A DNA stretch of 64,000 nucleotides from Gammaproteobacteria bacterium HGW-Gammaproteobacteria-1 (lineage in GTDB: Bacteria; Pseudomonadota; Gammaproteobacteria; Thiohalomonadales; Thiohalomonadaceae), in contig PGZL01000002.1 of assembly GCA_002840095.1 (NCBI GenBank), forward strand, positions 217,872 to 281,871. The letters are read 5' to 3'. The translations under genes were made by a program, and so were the position numbers. The notes beneath the pieces were generated by a model. It was given only the letters and a program-made list of their open reading frames with translations, ran no database searches and was not told the origin of the DNA. The first letter of the stretch is position 1. Every line of letters starts with the position of its first letter. This document shows positions 36,789-50,242 of this stretch, piece by piece.

Positions 36789-37304
36789 CTACAGCAGGGG
36801 CAATACCGCCTGCTCGGCCTGGTCCAGGGTGATCTCGCTGCGGTGGGTATAGGCGACGCGCCCCTGGCGGTCGAGGATTACGGTGTAGGGCAGGGCTCCC
36901 ACCTTGTTGCCCAGGGTCTGCGCCAGTTCCAGGCCGCCTTCCTCGCCGATGAGGATGGGGAAGTTGATGCCCAGGCTGTCGGCGAAGACCTGGGCGTTGT
37001 CGCGGGTGTCGATGGTGATGCCGACCACGGTGAAGCCGCGGGCGGCATGCTTTTCCTGCAACTCCATCAGCGCCGGCATCTCCTTGCGGCAGGGCGGGCA
37101 CCAGGGGGCCCAGAAGTTGAGCAGCACCACCTGTCCCTGCCACTCGGTCAGTTGCCGCGGCTTGCCGTCCAGATCGGGGAAGTTGAACGCAATGGCTGCC
37201 GTGGCCTGGGGCGCGGGCGCGGCCGGCACGGCATTGGTTTCCGGGCCGCAACCGGCGACGAGCAGGGCGGCCCCCAGGGCCAGGATGGGCAACAGACGGT
37301 GCAT
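36789..37304 (-). CDS. TlpA/ResA-type thioredoxin lipoprotein
   Basis: Periplasmic thiol-disulfide protein of 171 residues with lipobox LVAGC (C19). The thioredoxin fold has C69-PP-C72 in NFWAPWCPPCRKEM and a cis-Pro in VGALPYTVILD. It probably reduces a periplasmic substrate with electrons from DsbD, encoded just upstream (124 bp) on the same strand. It could act in cytochrome c maturation; this is inferred. Confidence 0.88.
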   Translation of the reverse strand: MHRLLPILALGAALLVAGCGPETNAVPAAPAPQATAAIAFNFPDLDGKPRQLTEWQGQVVLLNFWAPWCPPCRKEMPALMELQEKHAARGFTVVGITIDTRDNAQVFADSLGINFPILIGEEGGLELAQTLGNKVGALPYTVILDRQGRVAYTHRSEITLDQAEQAVLPLL

Positions 37305-37428: not shown

Positions 37429-39675
37429 CTAACGCAGCGCCCGCTCGACGTGGGCGCGGAACTCTTCCGGCCCGGTGAAGCCGACGATGCGGAAGGACGG
37501 GCGTTCCTTGCCGTCGGCGCCGAAGAACAGCAGGCTGGGCGGGCCGATGAGCTTGAAGTGGCGCAGCATGGCCTGGTCGGCGTCGTCGTTGGCGGTGACG
37601 TCGGCCTTGAGCAGGATCGCGCCCGATAGCGCCTGGATCACGCCCGGATCGGAAAAGGTGTACTTGTCGAATTCCTTGCAGGAGACGCACCAGTCGGCAT
37701 AGAAGTCCAGCATCACCGGCTTGCCCTGAGCGGCGGCCGCCGCCACCTCCCGCTCCATGTCGGCCACCGTCTTGATCTTGCGGAACTCCAGCCTAGCCGC
37801 CTGCGCCGCACCGATGCCGCCGCCGAAGCCGACGCCGCGCAGCGGTTGCAGCGGGTCGTTGCCGCCGGCGCCGGCGCCGATGAGCAGCAGCGCGCCGTGG
37901 ATCAGCAGGGCCAGTCCCAGCCCCTTCCACAGCTTGCGCCAGCCCGAACTGCCTTCCTTCAGCGGCTCCAGGGCGCCCATGTAGATGGCGGAGATGATGA
38001 CGAGCAGGGCCCAGGCCAGCATGGTGACGAAGGCGGGCAGGATGCGTTCCAGCATCCACAGCGCCACCGCCAGCAGCATCACGCCGAATACCGCCTTGAT
38101 GGCATTCATCCAGCCGCCGGCGCGCGGCAGCAGCTTGCCCGCCGAGGTGCCGATGAGCAGCAGCGGCGCGCCCATGCCCAGAGACAGGGCAAACAGGGCG
38201 ACGAAGCCCAACACCGCGTCGCCGGTCTGGCCGATATATATGATCGCGCCCATCAGCGGCGGCGCCACACAGGGGCCGACGATGAGGGCCGACAGCAGGC
38301 CCATGATGGCCACGCCGATGAGGCTGCCGCCCTGCTGCTTGTTGGAGATTTCGCTCAGCTTGGTCTGCAGGGCCGAGGGCAGCTGCAATTCATAGAAGCC
38401 GAACATGGACAGGGCCAGCAGCACGAACACCACGCTGAAGCTGCCGAGCACCCATACGTTCTGGAACGCCGCCTGCAGGTTGGCACCGAACAGCCCCGCC
38501 AGCATGCCTGCGATCGCGTAGGTCAGCGCCATGGCCAGCACGTAGACCAGGGACATGACGAAGGCCTTGCGGGTGGTGAGGCCCGCGCCCTGGCCGACGA
38601 TGATGCTGGACAGGATGGGGATCATCGGGAACACGCAGGGGGTGAAGGCCAGCAGCAGGCCGAGGCCGAAGAAGGTGAGCACGGTGACCAGGCGGTTGTC
38701 GCCGGCCAGGGCGGCGGCCAGGGAATCCTGCTCCGATTGCGGCGCGGGCGTGGAGGTTGCCGCTGCCGCCGGGGCGGTGGCCGCGCTCACAGCGGCGGCG
38801 CCCGGAACCAGACTGATTTCCTTGCGGATGGGCGGATAGCAGATACCGGTCAGCTCGGCGCAGCCCTGATAGCTCACCAGCAGGGTGGCCGGGCCGCTGC
38901 CGGAGCGCTGCAAGGGGATGCGCACTTCCATGCCGTCGTGGAAGACGAAGATGCGGCCGAAGAATTCGTCGTTCTTCTCCTCGCCGGCCGGCACGGTATA
39001 GGCGCCGAGAGTGACGGCGCTGCCGTCCTTGAGCTGGAAGGAGAACTTGTCCCGATAGAGGTAATGGTGGGGGGCGATCTGCCAGCGCAGGGTGACCGCA
39101 TCCTGTGCGACGTCGGCATCGAAGCGGAAGGCCACATCCGGGTCCAGCACCTCGTCATCCTGGAAGGCGCCGCCCTGGGGCTGCTGCAACTGGGCCAGGG
39201 ATTTGGCGGGGGCCGCGGCGGGAACGGCGGCGGCGCGCGTCGGCAGGCTGATTTGTATCGTGGTGCGCTGCGGCGGGTAGCACACGCCGATCTCGGCGCA
39301 GCCCTGGGAACCGACGGTCAGATCGAAGCTGGCGGGTGCGGCGGCGCCGCGGATAACCGGGATGTCGACCGTGATACGGCCGTGGAAGATTTCCACCTGG
39401 CCGAAGAACTCGTCCTGCTTGACCTTGCCGGCGGGGAAAACCGGCGCGCCGAGGTTGATGCCGTCGGTCTTGGTGCTGAAGCTGAAGCGCTCCTTATATA
39501 AATAGTAGCCCGGCGCGATGTTCCACTCGGCGCGCACGGTGGCGGCGTCGAGGGCGGTGACCTTGAGCTGGAAGGCCTGCTCCGGCGGCAGCAGGTCGTC
39601 GTCTTCCGCCGCCACCGTCACGGCGGACAGGGTCAGGACCAGCAGGGCAAACCATAGCTTCAGCGCAGTTCTCAT
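37429..39675 (-). CDS. dsbD: Thiol:disulfide interchange protein DsbD with duplicated N-terminal domain
   Basis: Transfers electrons from cytoplasmic thioredoxin to periplasmic proteins. At 748 residues it is about 150-180 longer than typical DsbD. Reason: two N-terminal nDsbD immunoglobulin-like domains, each with a Cys pair (C126/C132 in QGCAEIGVCYPP and C272/C279 in QGCAELTGICYPP). The central TM domain has FTPCVFPMIP and VGPCVAPP, and the C-terminal thioredoxin domain has YADWCVSCKEF. The ATGA overlap with cutA shows translational coupling. Confidence 0.94.
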   Translation of the reverse strand: MRTALKLWFALLVLTLSAVTVAAEDDDLLPPEQAFQLKVTALDAATVRAEWNIAPGYYLYKERFSFSTKTDGINLGAPVFPAGKVKQDEFFGQVEIFHGRITVDIPVIRGAAAPASFDLTVGSQGCAEIGVCYPPQRTTIQISLPTRAAAVPAAAPAKSLAQLQQPQGGAFQDDEVLDPDVAFRFDADVAQDAVTLRWQIAPHHYLYRDKFSFQLKDGSAVTLGAYTVPAGEEKNDEFFGRIFVFHDGMEVRIPLQRSGSGPATLLVSYQGCAELTGICYPPIRKEISLVPGAAAVSAATAPAAAATSTPAPQSEQDSLAAALAGDNRLVTVLTFFGLGLLLAFTPCVFPMIPILSSIIVGQGAGLTTRKAFVMSLVYVLAMALTYAIAGMLAGLFGANLQAAFQNVWVLGSFSVVFVLLALSMFGFYELQLPSALQTKLSEISNKQQGGSLIGVAIMGLLSALIVGPCVAPPLMGAIIYIGQTGDAVLGFVALFALSLGMGAPLLLIGTSAGKLLPRAGGWMNAIKAVFGVMLLAVALWMLERILPAFVTMLAWALLVIISAIYMGALEPLKEGSSGWRKLWKGLGLALLIHGALLLIGAGAGGNDPLQPLRGVGFGGGIGAAQAARLEFRKIKTVADMEREVAAAAAQGKPVMLDFYADWCVSCKEFDKYTFSDPGVIQALSGAILLKADVTANDDADQAMLRHFKLIGPPSLLFFGADGKERPSFRIVGFTGPEEFRAHVERALR

Positions 39676-39995
39676 TCGTTGTTTTCCGTTTGGTGGTTTA
39701 TCCAGTCGAGATAGGCAGGCAGACCCGCGCTCAGTGGGACAGCGATGATCTCCGGCAGTTCATACGGGTGGTGGCGGCGCAGGGTCTGTTCCAGCGCGGC
39801 GTAGCGTTCGGCGCGGGTCTTGATCTGGAGCAGGCACTCCGTGTCCTGCTGCAACTCGCCCTGCCACTCATAGACCGAGTGGACCGTGGGCACGATGTTG
39901 ACGCAGGCCGCGAGCCGGTCACGCACCAGGCGCTGCGCCAGATCGCGGGCGCAGTCGAGGTCGGGACAGGTGCAGAAAACGAGGTAGTGCTGCAT
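39672..39995 (-). CDS. cutA: Divalent-cation tolerance protein CutA
   Basis: Trimeric PII-like protein of 107 residues. ACVNIVPTVHSVYEWQGELQ and HHPYELPEIIAVPL are the family signatures. The start at 39995 (MQHYLVFCTCPDLD) fits; an upstream extension is not conserved. It is coupled to dsbD as in E. coli (cutA-dsbD). Confidence 0.94.
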   Translation of the reverse strand: MQHYLVFCTCPDLDCARDLAQRLVRDRLAACVNIVPTVHSVYEWQGELQQDTECLLQIKTRAERYAALEQTLRRHHPYELPEIIAVPLSAGLPAYLDWINHQTENNE

Positions 39996-40157
39996 CGGTG
40001 CAAGATATCGGATTCGCCGCCGCGGCGCATCATCAGGCATAATCGGAACGGTGTTAAGCCGTTGTGGTCCTAAGGAAACGCAGTATTTTCCCCGTGCTGA
40101 CAAACCGGAGCCATCCCGGTCACCTTTCAGGTCCAACATCCCCGTCGAGATATAAAG

Positions 40158-40610
40158 ATGCCCCTGCTCCGCTTTTTATTCCTGTTGCTGCTGTTGCTGC
40201 CCGTCGCCGAGATCTATCTGTTGATCCAGGTGGGCGGCGTGATCGGCGCGATCCCGACCATCGCCCTGGTGGTCTTCACCGCCGTACTGGGCACCCTGCT
40301 GCTGCGGCATCAGGGCCTCGCCGTGCTGAACCGGGTACAGGCCATGGTGCAGCGGGGCGAGACGCCCACGGTGGCCATGCTGGAGGGGCTGGTGATCCTG
40401 GTTTCGGGGCTGATGCTGCTGCTGCCGGGTTTTGTTACCGACGTCCTGGGACTGCTCGGGCTGGTCCCGCCGCTGCGCCAGGCCCTGATCGTCGCGGTGC
40501 TGCGCCGCGGCTTTCCCCGGCCCCCGTCCGGTCCGGCTTCCGGCCCCACCCCCGGGCGCCGCTCCGGCCCGGCCACCCTGGAAGGGCAGTACACCCGGGA
40601 AGACGACTGA
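40158..40610 (+). CDS. fxsA: FxsA family membrane protein
   Basis: Membrane protein of 150 residues with hydrophobic helices near 3-22, 30-48 and 70-100, followed by a Pro/Gly/Arg-rich tail. LPVAEIYLLIQVGGVIGAIPT matches FxsA, which in E. coli counteracts F-plasmid exclusion of phage T7; the cellular role is unknown. It is divergent from cutA-dsbD. Confidence 0.9.
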   Translation: MPLLRFLFLLLLLLPVAEIYLLIQVGGVIGAIPTIALVVFTAVLGTLLLRHQGLAVLNRVQAMVQRGETPTVAMLEGLVILVSGLMLLLPGFVTDVLGLLGLVPPLRQALIVAVLRRGFPRPPSGPASGPTPGRRSGPATLEGQYTREDD

Positions 40611-40736
40611 TATCGGCCCTGTTGATGGTAAGGGTATTTGTTGTTAATAATATCCTTATATTGTTGCCTTTCCCGTCAACCCCGCATTTTCCAAGACCAG
40701 GCCGTCTCGAAAATCGGACTTCCAGGATCTCCGTCT

Positions 40737-43112
40737 ATGAGACTTTCGGGTCGCATTGGTTTGTTCTTTGCGTGCGTGTTGTCTGCTGCGGTGCTGTTGA
40801 GTGCCTGTGGTGGCGGTGGAGCGGGCGGCAGTTCTCCCGCTCCCAGCCCCCAGGCATCTGTGGCTCCCGCCACCGGTTGGGCCAACGTCAAGATGGGCGG
40901 CGGCGGTTACGTCCCCGGCGTCATTTACCACCCGACCGTGGCCAACCTGCGCTATGCCCGGACGGATATGGCCGGTGTGTACCGCTGGGACGGCGGCGCA
41001 TCCAAATGGACGGCGCTCACCGATGGCTTTTCCCGTCCGGAAGGCCGCCACCAGGGCGCCGAGAGCATGGCCGTCGATCCGACCGATGCCGACAAGGTCT
41101 ACATGACGACGAGCCAGTACGTGACTAGCGGCAACGGCCGCTTCTCTTACTCGTCGGACCGGGGCAACACCTGGACCCACGTCGATCTACCCTTTCCGGT
41201 CGGCTCGAACAACCAGGGCCGGGGGATCGGCGAACGGCTGATGGTTGACCCCAATCTCCCCTCGACGCTGTTCTATGCCTCACGCACGGCGGGGCTGTGG
41301 AAGAGCGCGGATTACGGCTTGAACTGGAATCAGGTCACCTCGTTCTCTCCCTATGTAATGAACGCCACCGACATCACCGACTCCAACGGGGGCAGTCCCG
41401 TCGGCGTGGAATTCGTGGTGTTCGACGTCACGGTGCCGACGACGGGCTTCACGCCCTCGGGTAGCGCCACCCAGACCATTTACGTCGGCGTCGCCCCCGA
41501 CTACAAGGGCCTCGCGGGCCTCGGGTTCTACCTCTACAAGTCGACCGACGGCGGCGCCAGCTGGACCGGGATCGCGATTCCCGCCGCCGTGACGACGGCC
41601 ATCACAGGCAATCTTCATATTCCGCACCTGGCCCGGGCCGACGACGGCATGCTCTATGTGCCTTTCAGCTCCAGCTCGGGGCCGGGTAGTTCTGCACCGT
41701 CGATGCTTTACAAGTTCGACGGTGGCACGACTTGGACCAAACTGATCGCGTCCGGTGAAGGCGGCTACTACGGCGGCATCGGCGGCCTGTCGGTTCATGG
41801 CAGCGGCGCGACGACTAAAATCGTCTTTGGCGTCCCCGGCACCTGGGGGAGTGCCGGCTATGTTCAGATCGCCATGCGCTCCGCCGACGGCGGGCAGACC
41901 TGGAGCGAGATCGGCCGCTCGGGCGACCTTGACGGAACCACGAACTATCACGACGCAAGCGGAACCACTGGTGAGTTCCACCCGAGTTACTGGGGCTGGA
42001 TCGACGACCTGGATATCGATCCCTTCAATCCGGATCATGTCTCCTATGTGTTCGGCGGCGGCGTCTGGTCGACCAGCGAGGCCTTCTCGACGGATACGCC
42101 ACACTGGACCTTCGACGTCACCGGCATCGAGGAGATGGTGAATCTCGACATGGCGGTGCCGCCCCCGGGTGCTTCCTACCTGCTGGCCAGTGCGCACGGC
42201 GACACCGGTCTCTATGTCCATACCTCCCTGACGACCGGGGCGACCCGGTCGCCACCCTTGGGGGACGGCAATGGCACCGGCATCGACATGGCCTGGAACA
42301 ACCCGGCCTTCATCGCCGCCGTAGGAACCTTTGGCAGCACCTCCGATGGTGCCTGGTCCTCCGACTCCGGCGTCACCTGGACGATATTCCCGACCCTGCC
42401 GCCGACCGCATCGGCTTCCGGTGACGGCTCCGGCGTGGCGGTGACCGCCGACGGTGCCAACGTGATCTGGGCGATCGCCGGTCAGGTTCCGTATTACACC
42501 ACCGACAACGGAACCACCTGGAATGCCACCGATCTCCCGGCCCCGAATGGGTCCTATCACATCGCCGCCGACCGCAAGAACCCGCTCAAGGTCTATGCCT
42601 ACGACAATGGGGGTAACTGGTGGGATCGCTGGGCTTTCCCCACGAATGGAAGAATCTACTATTCGACCGATGGCGGGCACACCTACACCGCCAGTGCGCA
42701 GACCTGGCTTCCCAACGGCTTCAGCGTCACTGATCTGGCGGTCAACCCCTACACCGAGGGCGATATCTGGCTGGCCGATGCGGACAACCTGTGGCATTCC
42801 GTCGACTCCGGACTCACCTGGACCAGGCTGGATGCCATGGCAACGGTAGGGGCGGAATACACGAGTTTCCATGGCGCCATCAAGGTGGCATTGGGTAAGC
42901 CTGCCAATGGCTCCAGCTACTCGGCGGCCGTCTACCTGATCGGCACCATCAACGGCACAGACGGGGTTTATCGATCCGACGACGAGGGCATCACCTGGAC
43001 CCGCATCGACGACGACGACCATCGCTACGGCGGCGTGTCAGGGATCGTCGCCGACACCAGCGTCTACGGCCGGGTGTTCCTGGCGGGGCGGGGGATGGAC
43101 TACAACTACTGA
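40737..43112 (+). CDS. GH74-like xyloglucanase-type lipoprotein with Asp-box repeats
   Basis: Surface-bound beta-propeller protein of 791 residues with lipobox LLSAC (C24). The sequence after the linker (WANVKMGGGGYVPGVIYHP, LRYARTDMAGVYRWDGG) closely resembles GH74 endo-xyloglucanases, with D77 at the usual catalytic base position and D423/D424 (WGWIDDLDIDPFNPDHV) as candidate acid. At least eight Asp-boxes follow (SSDRGNTW, STDGGASW, SADGGQTW, SSDSGVTW, TTDNGTTW, STDGGHTY, SVDSGLTW, SDDEGITW). The activity is predicted, not shown. Confidence 0.82.
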   Translation: MRLSGRIGLFFACVLSAAVLLSACGGGGAGGSSPAPSPQASVAPATGWANVKMGGGGYVPGVIYHPTVANLRYARTDMAGVYRWDGGASKWTALTDGFSRPEGRHQGAESMAVDPTDADKVYMTTSQYVTSGNGRFSYSSDRGNTWTHVDLPFPVGSNNQGRGIGERLMVDPNLPSTLFYASRTAGLWKSADYGLNWNQVTSFSPYVMNATDITDSNGGSPVGVEFVVFDVTVPTTGFTPSGSATQTIYVGVAPDYKGLAGLGFYLYKSTDGGASWTGIAIPAAVTTAITGNLHIPHLARADDGMLYVPFSSSSGPGSSAPSMLYKFDGGTTWTKLIASGEGGYYGGIGGLSVHGSGATTKIVFGVPGTWGSAGYVQIAMRSADGGQTWSEIGRSGDLDGTTNYHDASGTTGEFHPSYWGWIDDLDIDPFNPDHVSYVFGGGVWSTSEAFSTDTPHWTFDVTGIEEMVNLDMAVPPPGASYLLASAHGDTGLYVHTSLTTGATRSPPLGDGNGTGIDMAWNNPAFIAAVGTFGSTSDGAWSSDSGVTWTIFPTLPPTASASGDGSGVAVTADGANVIWAIAGQVPYYTTDNGTTWNATDLPAPNGSYHIAADRKNPLKVYAYDNGGNWWDRWAFPTNGRIYYSTDGGHTYTASAQTWLPNGFSVTDLAVNPYTEGDIWLADADNLWHSVDSGLTWTRLDAMATVGAEYTSFHGAIKVALGKPANGSSYSAAVYLIGTINGTDGVYRSDDEGITWTRIDDDDHRYGGVSGIVADTSVYGRVFLAGRGMDYNY

Positions 43113-43611: not shown

Positions 43612-45312
<1,701 letters not shown>

Positions 45313-45333
45313 GCCCACCGCGCTCCGCGCCTG

Positions 45334-45367
45334 AAAAAGCCCCGCCGGGAAACCGGTGGGGCTTTTT
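45334..45367 (+). terminator. Rho-independent terminator after groEL
   Basis: AAAAAGCCCCGCCGG / CCGGTGGGGCTTTTTT stem with GAAA loop and T-run. Confidence 0.92.
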
Positions 45368-45404
45368 TATTGGGGAACTTTGCGAGCGGAGTGGGTCATC
45401 GATT

Positions 45405-45530
45405 CAAGGTTCAAGGCTCAAGGTTCAAGGCTCAAGGTTCAAGGTTCAAGGTTCAAGGTTCAAGGCTCAAGGCTCAAGGCTCAAGGCTCAAGGCTCAAGG
45501 CTCAAGGCTCAAGGCTCAAGGCTCAAGGTT
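45405..45530. repeat. Tandem array of 18 CAAGGYT heptamers
   Basis: Exactly 18 head-to-tail copies of a 7-bp unit, each CAAGGTT or CAAGGCT. The T/C position reads T C T C T T T T C C C C C C C C C T in order. There are no other substitutions and no spacers. It lies between the groEL terminator and the convergent anti-sigma gene. An ORF through it is repeat translation. Confidence 0.95.
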
Positions 45531-45589
45531 GACAACCGAAATAGCGGGACAAATTCATTTTTGAATTTTGAAAGTACTTTCCTAGAAAC

Positions 45590-45625
45590 AAAAAGCCCCG
45601 CTCGGCACACACCGGCGGGGCTTTC
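45590..45625 (-). terminator. Terminator after the anti-sigma gene
   Basis: AAAAGCCCCGC...GCGGGGCTTT stem; on the minus strand it ends in a T-run. It serves the sigma/anti-sigma transcript. Confidence 0.8.
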
Positions 45626-45632
45626 TGTTTTT

Positions 45633-45668
45633 TAACTTGCGACTTGTATCTTGAAACTTGTATCTGCC
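45633..45668. repeat. Single arm of the CAAG heptamer family
   Basis: ACTTGCG, ACTTGTATCTTGAAACTTGT heptamer arm between the terminator and the anti-sigma stop codon, without a visible partner arm. The sequence is nearly identical to the right arm at 23907-23935. Confidence 0.6.
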
Positions 45669-45670
45669 TT

Positions 45671-46417
45671 TCAGACTTTTACGTACAGCCAGCCTTCCTG
45701 CAGCCGATCCACCACCCGCTCCAGGGCGGACTTGGTGGTGCTCACATTGGGCAGCAGGCGGGTGTCGATGCCCTGTTCCTCCAGCCAGCGCATGGTGTTG
45801 GCGCAGGCCATTATGGTCAGGTTGTCGTAATTGCTGATCAGCTCCTGGGTGCGCTGCGGATAGGGCGATACCCCGGAACGCAGCAGGGCCAGGCCCTCGC
45901 CGTTGGCCACCACTTCCAGCTTGATGGGCAGGCCGCGCTCGCGGTAGCTGCTGAGCAGGGTCTCCACTTCGTCCAGGGCGTAACGCAGCTTGCCGGCATC
46001 GTTGGTGGTGACGTGCAGGATCACGTTCTGCTGCATGCCCTGGGCGGAGAGCAGCTGCACCGTCTGGAAGGCATCCAGGTCCTGGCGCTGGTAGGCGGCC
46101 TGCTCCGGCAGCGCCGTTTTCTCGGCCTGCGGTCCGTTGGCGAACCAGCCGGCCAGGGCACCCACCGCCAATAGCACGGAGGCGGCGGCGGCATCGGTGA
46201 TGCGCCAGCGGCGGCGCGGTGCCGGGCGCGCGGGCGCGGCCGGCGGCTCGGCATAGGCGTAACGCACCATGTCGCGCATGCGGCGGATTTCGCACACCTT
46301 GCGGCTCATGTTCTCGTCGTGCTTGAGCTCCGCGAAGATCTGCTCCTGCTCCTCGGGGCCGAGCTGGCCGTCGACGAAGGCATGCAACTGTTCATCGGAG
46401 ATGTGTTGACTAGTCAT
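45671..46417 (-). CDS. Predicted transmembrane anti-sigma factor fused to a DsrE-like domain
   Basis: Protein of 248 residues. The cytoplasmic N-terminus (HISDEQLHAFVDGQLGPEEQ) resembles anti-sigma factors, but the zinc-type HxxxCxxC motif is not present. One TM helix lies at about 75-93. The periplasmic C-terminus (about 115-248) resembles DsrE/DsrF-like proteins: ANGEGLALL, then C205 in IMACANTMRWLEEQGID, the position of the conserved DsrE cysteine. The ATGA overlap with the sigma gene supports a regulatory pair. Sulfur sensing is a guess. Confidence 0.75.
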   Translation of the reverse strand: MTSQHISDEQLHAFVDGQLGPEEQEQIFAELKHDENMSRKVCEIRRMRDMVRYAYAEPPAAPARPAPRRRWRITDAAAASVLLAVGALAGWFANGPQAEKTALPEQAAYQRQDLDAFQTVQLLSAQGMQQNVILHVTTNDAGKLRYALDEVETLLSSYRERGLPIKLEVVANGEGLALLRSGVSPYPQRTQELISNYDNLTIMACANTMRWLEEQGIDTRLLPNVSTTKSALERVVDRLQEGWLYVKV

Positions 46418-46965
46418 TTGACCCTCACCAGCATCGCTTCTTTGTGTGGGGCGGCCGGGGCCGCGTCGATGAGTTTTTCCTTCAGCGCCTGACGGGCCCG
46501 GCACAGGCGGCTCATCACCGTGCCGATGGGGATGGTCAGGATTTCCGCCACCTCGGCATAGCTGAATCCCTCCAGGTCGACCAGGGTGAGCACCTCGCGC
46601 TGGCCCTGCGGCAACCGCGCCACCGCATCGCGTACCCGGTGCACCGTCTGCATCTGCTGGTTTTCTCGCTCCGGGCTGGAATCGCTCTGGAACTCGTTTT
46701 CGTCGAACTCCTGCAGGTCGCGGCGGCTGCGCAGATGGCCGCGCCAGCAGTTGGTGAGAATGCTGAACAGCCAGCTGTCCATGGCCTCGAAGGAGCGCAG
46801 GCTGGCGGCGCTCTTCATCGCCTGCAGCATGGTTTCCTGCACCAGGTCGTCGGCCAGGTGGGTGTTGTGACACCAGGAATAGGCCACCCGGTACAGCCGC
46901 TTGCGGTTCTGCTCGAGACGATTGTTGAAATCGTGCGAGCGGCAAAACATCCCCAGTATTCCCAT
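46414..46965 (-). CDS. ECF-type RNA polymerase sigma factor
   Basis: Sigma factor of 183 residues. Region 2: RLYRVAYSWCHNTHLADDLVQ. Region 4: REVLTLVDLEGFSYAEVAEI, then IPIGTVMSRLCRARQALKEKL. The ATG at 46965 follows GGAGGAGAAC; an upstream frame is not conserved. It is cotranslated with the anti-sigma gene. Its regulon is unknown. Confidence 0.9.
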   Translation of the reverse strand: MGILGMFCRSHDFNNRLEQNRKRLYRVAYSWCHNTHLADDLVQETMLQAMKSAASLRSFEAMDSWLFSILTNCWRGHLRSRRDLQEFDENEFQSDSSPERENQQMQTVHRVRDAVARLPQGQREVLTLVDLEGFSYAEVAEILTIPIGTVMSRLCRARQALKEKLIDAAPAAPHKEAMLVRVK

Positions 46966-47359
46966 GTTCTCCTCCACGTACGCTCGGGTATTGTTGTTTT
47001 TGTTGTGCGGCGTCTGTCGCGCCCTACTGATTAAGATGATTCCGCGGGCAAAATATTCCATCGCCGGCGGCCGGAATAAAAATGGACCGGCACCCATCTT
47101 AACCCTCCGGACAACCTAGGCAAAGCGTCTGGCTCTTAACACCTCGCCTTGTGTGGTCTTTGTCTTGTTCCTGACTTGGGCGTGCGGCCCGTGCCCCAGT
47201 TCGCGGGCCGCGCGATGTTGTGGGGATCCTCCTTTCCCCCACCTTGGGCTGGGATTCGGCCGACCTGATTACCGGTTGAATCCCGGTTTTTTTTCGCCCG
47301 TGCCGCGCGGAGCGGAGGGACTGATACAATCCCGTTTCGTCCCCCAGGCCGGACCCATC
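46966..47359. other. 394-bp divergent intergenic region between the sigma factor gene and glnE
   Basis: No gene seen. On the minus strand GGAATATTTTGCCC and GGAATAAAAATGG-like motifs (47055-47085) could be ECF promoter parts for autoregulation. A weak hairpin ACCGG/CCGGT followed by T8 is near 47270-47295 on the plus strand. TACAAT at 47325-47330 could be the -10 box for glnE; no clear -35 was found. Confidence 0.4.
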
Positions 47360-50242
47360 GTGACTTCCGAACCCCTCTTTGCCGCCGCCCTGAGCGCCCT
47401 TCCCCTGCCCTTGCAGGAGCGAGTCGCGCGACAGTGGCACAGCCTGTTCGAAGCCGCCCCCGCCACGGCCCTGCCGCCGGCATTTCTCACCGAACTGGCG
47501 CGGGTGTGGGCCTGCAGCGAATTCATCACCGATGCCTGCGTGCGCCATCCCGAGATGTTGCAGGAGCTGCACGACAGCGGCGACCTGCGCCAAAGCTATG
47601 CCGCGGACCGTTACCGGCAGCATCTAGCCGCCCTGCTCGACGGCGTCACCGGCGAGGCCCAGCTGGGTGAGCGGCTGCGCCGCTACCGTCGCCGTGAAAT
47701 GGTGCGCATCGCCTGGCGCGACCTGGCCGGGCACTGCGAACTGAACGAGGTGGTGACCGACCTCTCGGCCCTGGCCGACGCCTGCATCGACCTGTCCCTG
47801 GAACGCCTGTATGCCTGGCAGTGCGCGCAATGGGGTACGCCCAGCAACCCTGATGGTGTGGCACAGCGCCTGGTGGTCCTGGGCATGGGCAAGCTGGGCG
47901 CCCACGAACTCAATTTCTCCTCCGACGTGGACCTGATCTTCGCCTACCCCGAGGACGGCGAGACCCGCGACGGGCCACGCAGCATCACCAACCAGGAGTT
48001 CTTCATCCGCCTCGGCCAGCGTCTCGGTAATGTGCTCAGCAACACCACCGCCGAGGGCTATGTATTCCGGGTCGACACCCGCCTGCGTCCCTTCGGCGAG
48101 TCCTCCGCCCTGGCCCTGTCCTTCGATGCCATGGAGGACTACTACCAGGTGCACGGCCGCGAGTGGGAGCGCTACGCCATGATCAAGGCGCGGGTGGTGG
48201 CGGGCGACCGGGCGGCCGGCAATGAACTGATGGCCATGCTCAAGCCCTTCGTCTACCGCCGCTACGTGGACTACGGCGCCTTCCAGTCGCTGCGCGAGAT
48301 GAAGGCGATGATCGGCCGCGAGGTGCAGCGCAAGGGCATGGACGACAACGTCAAGCTGGGCGCCGGCGGCATCCGCGAGGTGGAGTTCATCGGCCAGGCC
48401 TTTCAGCTGATCCGCGGCGGCCGCGAGCCGACCCTGCAGGTGCGGCGCATCCTCACCGTGCTGGAGGCCCTGCGCGGCTTCGGCTGGCTGCCCGACTTCG
48501 TGGTGGACGAGCTGACCGGGTCCTATACCTTTCTGCGCAACACCGAACACCGCATCCAGGAATACCAGGATCGCCAGACCCACGACCTGCCCGAGGACGA
48601 AACCGGCCGCCTGCGTCTGGCCTGGAGCATGGGCTATGAAGACTGGGCGTCCTTCGAGACGGTGCTGCGCGATCACATGCGCCGGGTGCATGAGCATTTC
48701 GAGCAGGTGTTCGCCGCGCCGCAGACCGAGCACGCCGCGTCCGACAGCCTCGACCTCACCGGCGTGTGGCAGGGCAACCTGGATCAGGAACAGGCCTGCC
48801 ACTCCCTGGCCCAGGCCGGTTACGGCGACACCGCCGAGGTCTATCGCCTGGTGCAACAGGTGCGCCAGGGCCGCGCCTTCCTCAGCCTGAGCAATCAGGG
48901 GCGCACGCGCATGAACCAGCTGATCCCCCTGTTGCTGGGCGCGGTGGGGCAGGGTGGGCAGCCCGATCTCACCCTGACGCGCCTTTTGCATCTGGTGGAG
49001 ACCATCGCCCGGCGCAGTTCCTACCTGGCCCTGCTGGTGGAAAATCCCATGGCCCTGTCGCAGCTGGTGCGGCTGTGCGCCGCCTCGCCCTGGATTGCCT
49101 CGCAGCTGGCGCTGTATCCGCTGCTGCTGGACGAACTGCTCGACCCGCGTTCGCTGTACGCGCCGCCGCGGCGCAAGCAGCTGTCCAACGAACTGCGCCA
49201 ACGCATGATGTACGTGACGGCCGAAGACCAGGAGGCGCAGATGGATGCGCTGCGCCAGTTCAAGCAGGCCAACACCCTGCGCGTGGCCGCCGCCGACGTG
49301 ATGGAGGCGGTGCCGCTGATGGTGGTGAGCGATCACCTCACCGAGCTGGCCGAGGTGCTGCTGGACGAGTCCCTGACCCTGGCCTGGCGCCACATGATAG
49401 GCCGCCACGGCCGCCCCGCCTGCGGCGAAGGTCGCGCCTGCGATACCGGTTTCGCCATCATCGCCTACGGCAAGCTGGGCGGCATCGAACTGGGCTACGG
49501 CTCCGATCTCGACATCGTGTTCCTGCACAGCAACGAAAGCGAAGGCCGCATGACCGACGGCGACAAGCCGGTGGACAACGCGGTGTTCTACGCCCGCATG
49601 GCCCAGCGCATCATCCACATCCTCGGCACCCGCACCCCGGCCGGCGTGCTGTACGAAGTGGATACCCGGCTGCGTCCCAGCGGCGCCTCCGGCCTGCTGG
49701 TGTCCGGCCTGGACGCCTTCGCCACCTATCAGGGCAACGAGGCCTGGACCTGGGAGCACCAGGCCCTGGTGCGCGCCCGCGGCGTGGCCGGCGACCCGGC
49801 GGTGATCGAGACCTTCGAGCAGATCCGCCGCGCCATCCTCAGCCGGCCGCGCGAGCACGACAAGCTGCGCCAGGAAGTACGCGAAATGCGCGAGCGCATG
49901 CGCGGCCAGCTGGCGAAGGGCGGGGCGGAAAAGTTCGATTTGAAACAGGACCCCGGTGGTATCGCGGACATAGAATTTATGGTGCAATATGGCGTCTTGG
50001 CGTGGGCGCACGAACACCCCGCGCTGCTTGATTTCACCGACAATATCCGCCTGCTCGAACGCCTGGCCCAGGCCGGCCGGCTGCCGCCGGCCGACGCCGA
50101 GCTGCTTGCCGATGCCTACCGCGCCTACCGTGCCCAGGTGCACCGGCTGACCCTGCAGGAGCAGCCGGCGCTGGTGGAGGGCGCCGAGTTCGACGCCTTG
50201 CGTGCGCAGGTATTGCGCATCTGGCGCGAGTTGATGGAATGA
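47360..50242 (+). CDS. glnE: Glutamine synthetase adenylyltransferase/adenylyl-removing enzyme
   Basis: Bifunctional regulator of glutamine synthetase, 960 residues (E. coli 946). The N-terminal deadenylylase domain contains GMGKLGAHELNFSSDVDLIF and the C-terminal adenylylase domain YGKLGGIELGYGSDLDIVFL, each with the nucleotidyltransferase GSDxD-type metal site. The start is taken as the GTG at 47360 (MTSEPLFAAAL); frames further upstream are not conserved. ilvE follows after a 63-bp gap. Confidence 0.93.
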   Translation: MTSEPLFAAALSALPLPLQERVARQWHSLFEAAPATALPPAFLTELARVWACSEFITDACVRHPEMLQELHDSGDLRQSYAADRYRQHLAALLDGVTGEAQLGERLRRYRRREMVRIAWRDLAGHCELNEVVTDLSALADACIDLSLERLYAWQCAQWGTPSNPDGVAQRLVVLGMGKLGAHELNFSSDVDLIFAYPEDGETRDGPRSITNQEFFIRLGQRLGNVLSNTTAEGYVFRVDTRLRPFGESSALALSFDAMEDYYQVHGREWERYAMIKARVVAGDRAAGNELMAMLKPFVYRRYVDYGAFQSLREMKAMIGREVQRKGMDDNVKLGAGGIREVEFIGQAFQLIRGGREPTLQVRRILTVLEALRGFGWLPDFVVDELTGSYTFLRNTEHRIQEYQDRQTHDLPEDETGRLRLAWSMGYEDWASFETVLRDHMRRVHEHFEQVFAAPQTEHAASDSLDLTGVWQGNLDQEQACHSLAQAGYGDTAEVYRLVQQVRQGRAFLSLSNQGRTRMNQLIPLLLGAVGQGGQPDLTLTRLLHLVETIARRSSYLALLVENPMALSQLVRLCAASPWIASQLALYPLLLDELLDPRSLYAPPRRKQLSNELRQRMMYVTAEDQEAQMDALRQFKQANTLRVAAADVMEAVPLMVVSDHLTELAEVLLDESLTLAWRHMIGRHGRPACGEGRACDTGFAIIAYGKLGGIELGYGSDLDIVFLHSNESEGRMTDGDKPVDNAVFYARMAQRIIHILGTRTPAGVLYEVDTRLRPSGASGLLVSGLDAFATYQGNEAWTWEHQALVRARGVAGDPAVIETFEQIRRAILSRPREHDKLRQEVREMRERMRGQLAKGGAEKFDLKQDPGGIADIEFMVQYGVLAWAHEHPALLDFTDNIRLLERLAQAGRLPPADAELLADAYRAYRAQVHRLTLQEQPALVEGAEFDALRAQVLRIWRELME

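Follow-up and report, generated by a model that had tools for sequence, protein, structure and literature searches.

A stretch of 64,000 nucleotides from contig PGZL01000002.1 of Gammaproteobacteria bacterium HGW-Gammaproteobacteria-1 (positions 217,872 to 281,871; referred to as the window) carries on its reverse strand a gene pair coding for an extracytoplasmic function (ECF) sigma factor and for an anti-sigma factor with a DsrE-like C-terminal domain. The sigma factor gene (46414..46965(-), protein P0002, 183 aa) matches Pfam Sigma70_r2 (2e-14) and Sigma70_r4_2 (6e-18). The anti-sigma factor gene (45671..46417(-), protein P0001, 248 aa) overlaps it by 4 bp. Both open reading frames (ORFs) are intact, and a Shine-Dalgarno-like GGAGGAG precedes the ATG of the sigma gene. 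Homologous ORFs with the same fusion of domains were collected, giving a set of 84 from 81 loci (the window and 80 others) in 62 genomes. A sigma gene is located directly upstream of 80 of these 84 fusion ORFs.

The N-terminal half of P0001 is a predicted cytoplasmic anti-sigma domain (approximately residues 5-57, 46247..46405(-)), which shows sub-threshold similarity to zf-HC2 and RseA_N. Residues D16 and L19 are invariant in a 12-row alignment (A1). Zinc anti-sigma (ZAS) factors carry the zinc motif Hx3Cx2C. P0001 has a single cysteine (C42) before its membrane helix and lacks this motif. The helix itself (approximately residues 76-95, 46133..46192(-)) is recognised from sequence, hydropathy and a tally of positively charged residues, with RRRWR just in front of it. 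Lysine and arginine are more numerous before than after the helix in 82 of the 84 fusion ORFs and equally frequent in the other two, and the C-terminal domain should therefore face the periplasm. This agrees with the sequence-only reading, which had placed a DsrE-like domain on that side of the membrane.

The periplasmic part (residues 131-247, 45677..46027(-)) is a DsrE/MTH1491-like domain. The Pfam scan of the window protein gave no match to DsrE (PF02635), and P0001 alone produced weak or misleading Pfam and NCBIfam matches (DUF6264, NF052375). PF02635 recognises 22 of 49 homologous domains individually (E<=0.01), but not that of the window. A phmmer search with P0001 retrieved MTH1491 (1l1s, E 8e-6, residues 131-247), and a profile of the 49 domains (A3) matched MTH1491 at 1e-20 and ST0148 (2pd2) at 1.4e-12. 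The domain alone was also modelled with AlphaFold2 from two sequences (predicted local distance difference test, pLDDT, 73); the model of the whole protein, equally from two sequences, reached a pLDDT of 46. The top five structure matches of the domain model all belong to the DsrE family: MTH1491 (Z 9.1), BT1422 (8.4), ST0148 (8.2), an engineered DsrE-like chain (8.2) and YchN (7.5). The superposition on MTH1491 covers 90 residues at 2.4 A (VIA Z 9.1), Foldseek assigns the match to 1l1s an E-value of 1.4e-4, and SSO1126, TusBCD (Z 6.4) and DsrE of Syntrophomonas (Z 6.2) follow at lower ranks. The structure comparison proposed along with the sequence-only reading thus gave a good match where a poor one would have spoken against it, and we reject the possibility that the domain is not DsrE-like.

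The codon of C205, the only cysteine of the periplasmic part, is located at 45803..45805(-). A cysteine is found at this position, a strand-helix turn, in all 84 fusion ORFs, being the sole periplasmic cysteine in 83 of them. A tryptophan is equally invariant (84 of 84), and a glycine and a histidine are each kept in more than 90%. The IMACANT motif had been described beforehand as having a single cysteine at the position typical for the DsrE family, and a lack of conservation had been named as one of the observations that would refute the reading. The motif is as described, the cysteine is conserved throughout, and a chance residue can be rejected.

Far from being confined to this locus, the fusion is carried by many sulfur-oxidizing bacteria. 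A domain-architecture search, suggested by the earlier reading and started from the 12-row alignment, detected the full-length fusion, among the matches listed, in 66 of the 369 genomes sampled from the class, representing about 40 families by hand count. Ten of these 66 genomes were left out of the set of 84 ORFs. In a phylum sample of 398 genomes, the matches listed comprise two further full-length fusions, both belonging to the class; no full-length fusion from elsewhere in the phylum is among them. The out-of-class matches examined are lone DsrE-like proteins, most of them with N-termini resembling export signals, or anti-sigma factors whose C-terminal domain is a different one. Plasmid matches to P0001 consist of seven Azospirillum records which cover only the DsrE part. 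The gene soxB occurs in 65 of the 66 fusion genomes but in 85 of the 303 others (p=5e-29, relatedness not corrected). For this count, soxB was scored as present at a best E <= 1e-100 (values copied by hand), which gives 150 genomes as compared to 148 with the search tool's own cut-off, and two genomes with a fusion split over contigs (G109) or a partial one (G276) were scored as non-fusion.

A second DsrE-like gene is frequently found close to the fusion. Of the 84 fusion ORFs, 47 have a standalone DsrE ORF no more than 2.5 kb away, which in most cases is divergent from the sigma gene and otherwise lies downstream in the operon. The divergent copies are often followed by a Porin_O_P gene (a porin occurs in 30 loci, 25 of which have the DsrE gene). 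A charged and hydrophobic N-terminus resembling a signal peptide is present in 46 of 48 neighbouring standalone DsrE ORFs, and 47 of the 48 have the matching cysteine. The window's genome (G000) codes for four unlinked DsrE-like proteins with such N-termini (L237 on C59, L238 on C24, L239 on C47, L240 on C1). Novelty had been expected of a DsrE-like domain located beyond the cytoplasmic membrane, but this is not borne out: exported standalone members are common and many of them are encoded beside these sigma operons, so that we do not regard an exported DsrE-like protein as a novelty. In two loci (L141, L152) soxX, soxY, soxZ, a soxA-like gene and soxB lie behind the operon in the same direction, and in a third (L163) soxB is close to the sigma/anti-sigma pair. 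In L122 and L145 a SoxB-like ORF, identified by clustering only, is divergent from the sigma gene. The sigma/anti-sigma(DsrE) pair occurs twice in three loci, L110 (G245), L121 (G129) and L088 (G004), with the two copies either in tandem or next to each other, and in L110 and L121 each of the two pairs has its own DsrE neighbour. Two families without a Pfam match recur beside the fusion (L115:7851-9119(+), L162:4624-6237(-)), forming clusters of 5 and 3 genomes.

A de novo search upstream of the sigma gene revealed the motif GGAATA-N15/16-CGTCTW. Its strict form is present in 55 of 80 sigma upstream regions, and in a word-pair scan of these 80 regions GGAAT-N17-CGTC was found in 35 genomes where 0.42 are expected. 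The motif equals the consensus published for ECF26 sigma factors, with GGAAT as -35 and CGTC as -10 element (PMC6527743, consulted in part). As is characteristic for ECF26 systems, the co-encoded anti-sigma factor starts with an anti-sigma domain and spans the membrane with a single helix. In a tree, P0002 has ECF26-like sigma factors as its nearest neighbours; 22 sigma factors from fusion loci are placed beside, not inside, 10 ECF26-like sigma factors, far from the 4 other alignable sigma factors of the window's genome. A Sinorhizobium meliloti plasmid locus (L362) could be identified as rpoE6, its two published promoters being matched exactly; the sigma factor encoded there is 41% identical to P0002.

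The standalone DsrE genes provide an internal control for the motif, which precedes 30 of 33 divergent copies but none of the 13 located downstream in the operon and none of 48 reversed sequences. When searched as an IUPAC pattern in two sets of 30 and 26 fusion genomes, it gave 83 and 61 sites (reversed pattern: 17 and 18), while 20 genomes without the fusion gave 31 sites (reversed pattern: 24). Numerous sites in other genomes fall within ORFs.

The window's genome contains six sites, as compared to zero for the reversed pattern. One is the predicted autoregulatory promoter of the sigma operon (GGAATA-N15-CATCTT, 47033..47059(-), 21.9 bits with a position weight matrix, PWM). Another (40155..40182(-), PWM 21.1 bits) precedes cutA (39672..40139(-), PF03091 4e-38) and dsbD (37429..39675(-), DsbD_TM 5e-102), the latter coding for a thiol:disulfide interchange protein. 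Both genes are predicted regulon members, and a TlpA-like thioredoxin lipoprotein gene downstream of dsbD (36789..37304(-), Redoxin and AhpC-TSA matches) is a possible one. Two further sites precede genes for a YeeE/TsuA-like sulfur transporter and a SoxH-like hydrolase. Equivalent sites recur in other genomes: before cutA in G002, G003, G150 and G233, before a DsbD-like gene in G225, before the transporter gene in G001, G002, G004 and G267, and before the hydrolase gene in G002, G003 and G018. The site in front of a helicase gene (C42:83213; SNF2-type as judged by reading the sequence) probably occurs by chance. The sixth, a promoter-like site divergent from the sigma operon (47073..47100(+), PWM 20.1 bits), points toward glnE and recurs in each of the five members of the genus which we examined (G000-G004); glnE is an unexpected target.

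Sites also precede soxB (G328, G172) and soxX (G351, G280, G185), these genes being named by TIGR04486/TIGR04485. For a systematic comparison we scored the surroundings of soxB in 40 fusion genomes, chosen from those listed with coordinates, and in 40 soxB-positive genomes without the fusion, chosen likewise; among the fusion genomes left out are G174, G284 and G185, in which sox is next to the sigma gene. At a threshold of 17 bits, 11 of the 40 fusion genomes have a site, versus 2 of the 40 controls (p=0.013, relatedness not corrected). The 12 fusion-genome sites that reach 14 bits or more are all co-oriented with soxB, six of them 57-246 bp and six 2488-2673 bp upstream; the distance of 2.5-2.7 kb fits the start of a soxX operon. 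Motif sites were also seen before genes for a COX1-family oxidase subunit and a cytochrome P460 (L224 in G351, L232 in G376), and before a degenerate extra sigma-like gene near an anti-sigma fragment (L223, G351 C49).

The gene pair of the window is placed between glnE and groESL. About ten loci share this layout, which reflects synteny only, and we rejected these neighbours as a key to function. An Rfam scan of 44500-48500 returned no match. A 7-bp tandem repeat (TCAAGGC, 17.9 copies, 45404-45528) separates groEL from the anti-sigma gene. An ORF of 824 aa (40638-43112(+)) with a lipoprotein-like stretch near its start lies between cutA/FxsA-like genes and groES and does not cluster with ORFs of the other fusion loci.

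Taken together, we interpret the gene pair as an ECF26-like system of sulfur-oxidizing Gammaproteobacteria, in which the DsrE domain of the anti-sigma factor senses sulfur and frees the sigma factor for promoters of sulfur-oxidation genes. We assign this joint reading a probability of roughly 0.6. It is based on features read from the sequence: the domains, the topology signal, cysteine conservation, the promoter motif, the predicted target genes and the co-occurrence with soxB. The promoter motif, the co-occurrence with soxB and the gene neighbourhood also back the link to sulfur that had been suspected initially. In the window, an anti-sigma factor with a sulfur-carrier domain as its periplasmic part is probably a sensor of reduced sulfur. 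The anti-sigma factor would retain the sigma factor at the inner membrane until reduced or partly oxidized sulfur compounds enter the periplasm. A sulfur group would then be placed on C205, or in the pocket around it, directly or via the exported DsrE-like protein which is usually co-regulated, and the anti-sigma factor would release the sigma factor. The latter would read GGAATA-N15/16-CGTCTW promoters, among them those of its own operon, the exported DsrE-like protein, an OprO/P-type porin and the sox genes. The YeeE/TsuA-like transporter, the SoxH-like hydrolase and cutA-dsbD would be further targets, the last providing periplasmic reducing power.

More specifically, and only tentatively, we propose that the anti-sigma factor is a membrane-spanning receptor derived from a sulfur-relay protein. 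Its periplasmic cysteine would acquire a sulfane or thiosulfonate group, either directly or by transfer from the co-regulated exported DsrE partner, and the covalent modification would free the sigma factor and so switch on thiosulfate oxidation. If true, many sulfur oxidizers among the Gammaproteobacteria would sense extracytoplasmic thiosulfate by means of this receptor. DsrE3A of Metallosphaera provides a chemical precedent, as its cysteine takes up a thiosulfate group from tetrathionate (PMC4175335, available sections).

Several observations weigh against sulfur sensing by the domain or against the proposed regulon. According to the same sections, DsrE3A reacts with tetrathionate, whereas no reaction was seen with thiosulfate, sulfite or polysulfide. 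The cysteine marks MTH1491-like proteins in general, and its conservation alone does not prove sensing; C205 is a putative chemical switch. ECF26 anti-sigma factors without a DsrE domain respond to sulfite-generating compounds, and the domain is therefore not needed for a sulfur response. The window locus lacks both the adjacent exported DsrE gene and the porin gene found at other loci, and just one of the four exported DsrE genes of its genome (the one on C24) is preceded by a fair site (15.3 bits). In 29 of the 40 fusion genomes, including the window's own (best 10.8 bits), the surroundings of soxB contain no site that reaches 17 bits, and two control genomes do have such sites; one of the two (G382) is from a family with the fusion in other members.

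The closest rival holds that the DsrE domain is a docking platform without chemistry on C205. It would pair with the exported DsrE-like protein, whose amount or modification reports the sulfur state, on the model of the mutual pairing of DsrE, DsrF and DsrH. The frequent standalone neighbours (47 of 84), their shared motif when divergent (30 of 33) and the alignment of the fusion-domain profile with the standalone DsrE profile at 99.85% probability are in its favour. On the other hand, 37 of the 84 fusion ORFs, that of the window included, have no DsrE neighbour within 2.5 kb, and yet the cysteine is kept in all; we consider docking rather unlikely. Still less probable in our view is that the signal is sulfite, as for S. 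meliloti RpoE1 and RpoE4, with the DsrE domain just replacing the usual periplasmic domain. The promoter consensus is that of ECF26, a neighbouring SoxX-like protein has a weak additional score for SorU, and RpoE4 responds to thiosulfate and taurine, which are both sulfite sources (PMC3511301, consulted in part). The predicted targets, though, are sox genes, a sulfur transporter, dsbD and DsrE-like proteins, with neither sorT nor sorA recognised among the downstream genes that we read.

A general sensor of thiol or redox stress in the envelope, with C205 oxidized or glutathionylated and dsbD as the key target, is suggested by the cutA-dsbD site of the window's genome and its counterparts (cutA in four other genomes, a DsbD-like gene in G225). 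We regard it as quite improbable: a lone cysteine cannot form an intramolecular disulfide, and the near confinement of the fusion to genomes with soxB (65 of 66) would not be expected. That the domain is a passive leftover, with release governed by proteolysis or other partners only, is hardly credible in view of the residue conservation described above (cysteine and tryptophan in 84 of 84, glycine and histidine above 90%).

Sensing of sulfur by the DsrE domain of the anti-sigma factor, our preferred reading, would explain how sulfur oxidizers notice their sulfur food. It provides a concrete candidate sensor with a defined cysteine, a defined promoter and a target list, found in 66 of 369 class genomes among the matches listed, and part of the exported DsrE-like proteins may serve a periplasmic branch of sulfur signalling.

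A literature search restricted to openly licensed papers yielded no description of a DsrE-domain anti-sigma factor. Within that scope, the DsrE-like periplasmic domain, the exported partner and the predicted sox-centred regulon in Gammaproteobacteria, all as deduced from the sequences, appear not to have been described before. Standalone MTH1491/ST0148-type DsrE-like proteins (PF02635), which we take to be COG1416, share the fold, the cysteine motif and a C-terminal GW/GY motif with the window's domain, but are soluble or exported rather than fused via a membrane helix to an anti-sigma domain. The sulfur carriers DsrEFH/TusBCD and DsrE3A likewise have the same fold, but act in cytoplasmic sulfur relay and not as regulators. 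The sulfane-sulfur repressors SoxR and SqrR also exert cysteine-based control of sulfur oxidation (PMC10451225), but these ArsR-type repressors use two cysteines and have neither a membrane part nor a sigma factor. ECF sigma-2 of Arcobacter butzleri equally activates sox genes, but this organism is from another phylum, and a DsrE domain is not mentioned in the available text (PMC3445524).

The ECF26 pairs are also close counterparts, and that their sigma group is linked to sulfur is already known. RpoE1, RpoE4 and RpoE6 of S. meliloti and SigE of Starkeya novella resemble the window pair in their GGAAT/CGTC promoters, in the co-transcribed single-pass anti-sigma factor, in sulfur-related targets and, in several cases, in autoregulation of the sigma operon (PMC3511301, PMC6527743, PMC6180224, each consulted in part). 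The Sinorhizobium ECF26 sigma factors respond to thiosulfate and taurine, probably via sulfite, and control a sulfite dehydrogenase, and the group was earlier guessed to govern thiosulfate oxidation (PMC3511301). As far as the consulted parts of these papers go, the known ECF26 targets are sulfite oxidases and not sox genes, unlike the regulon predicted here. A search of ten other ECF26-like loci with the DsrE profile gave no match. The C-terminal domain of ECF26 anti-sigma factors is described as RsiW-like (PMC6180224, same parts), whereas the anti-sigma factor of the window carries a DsrE-like domain instead.
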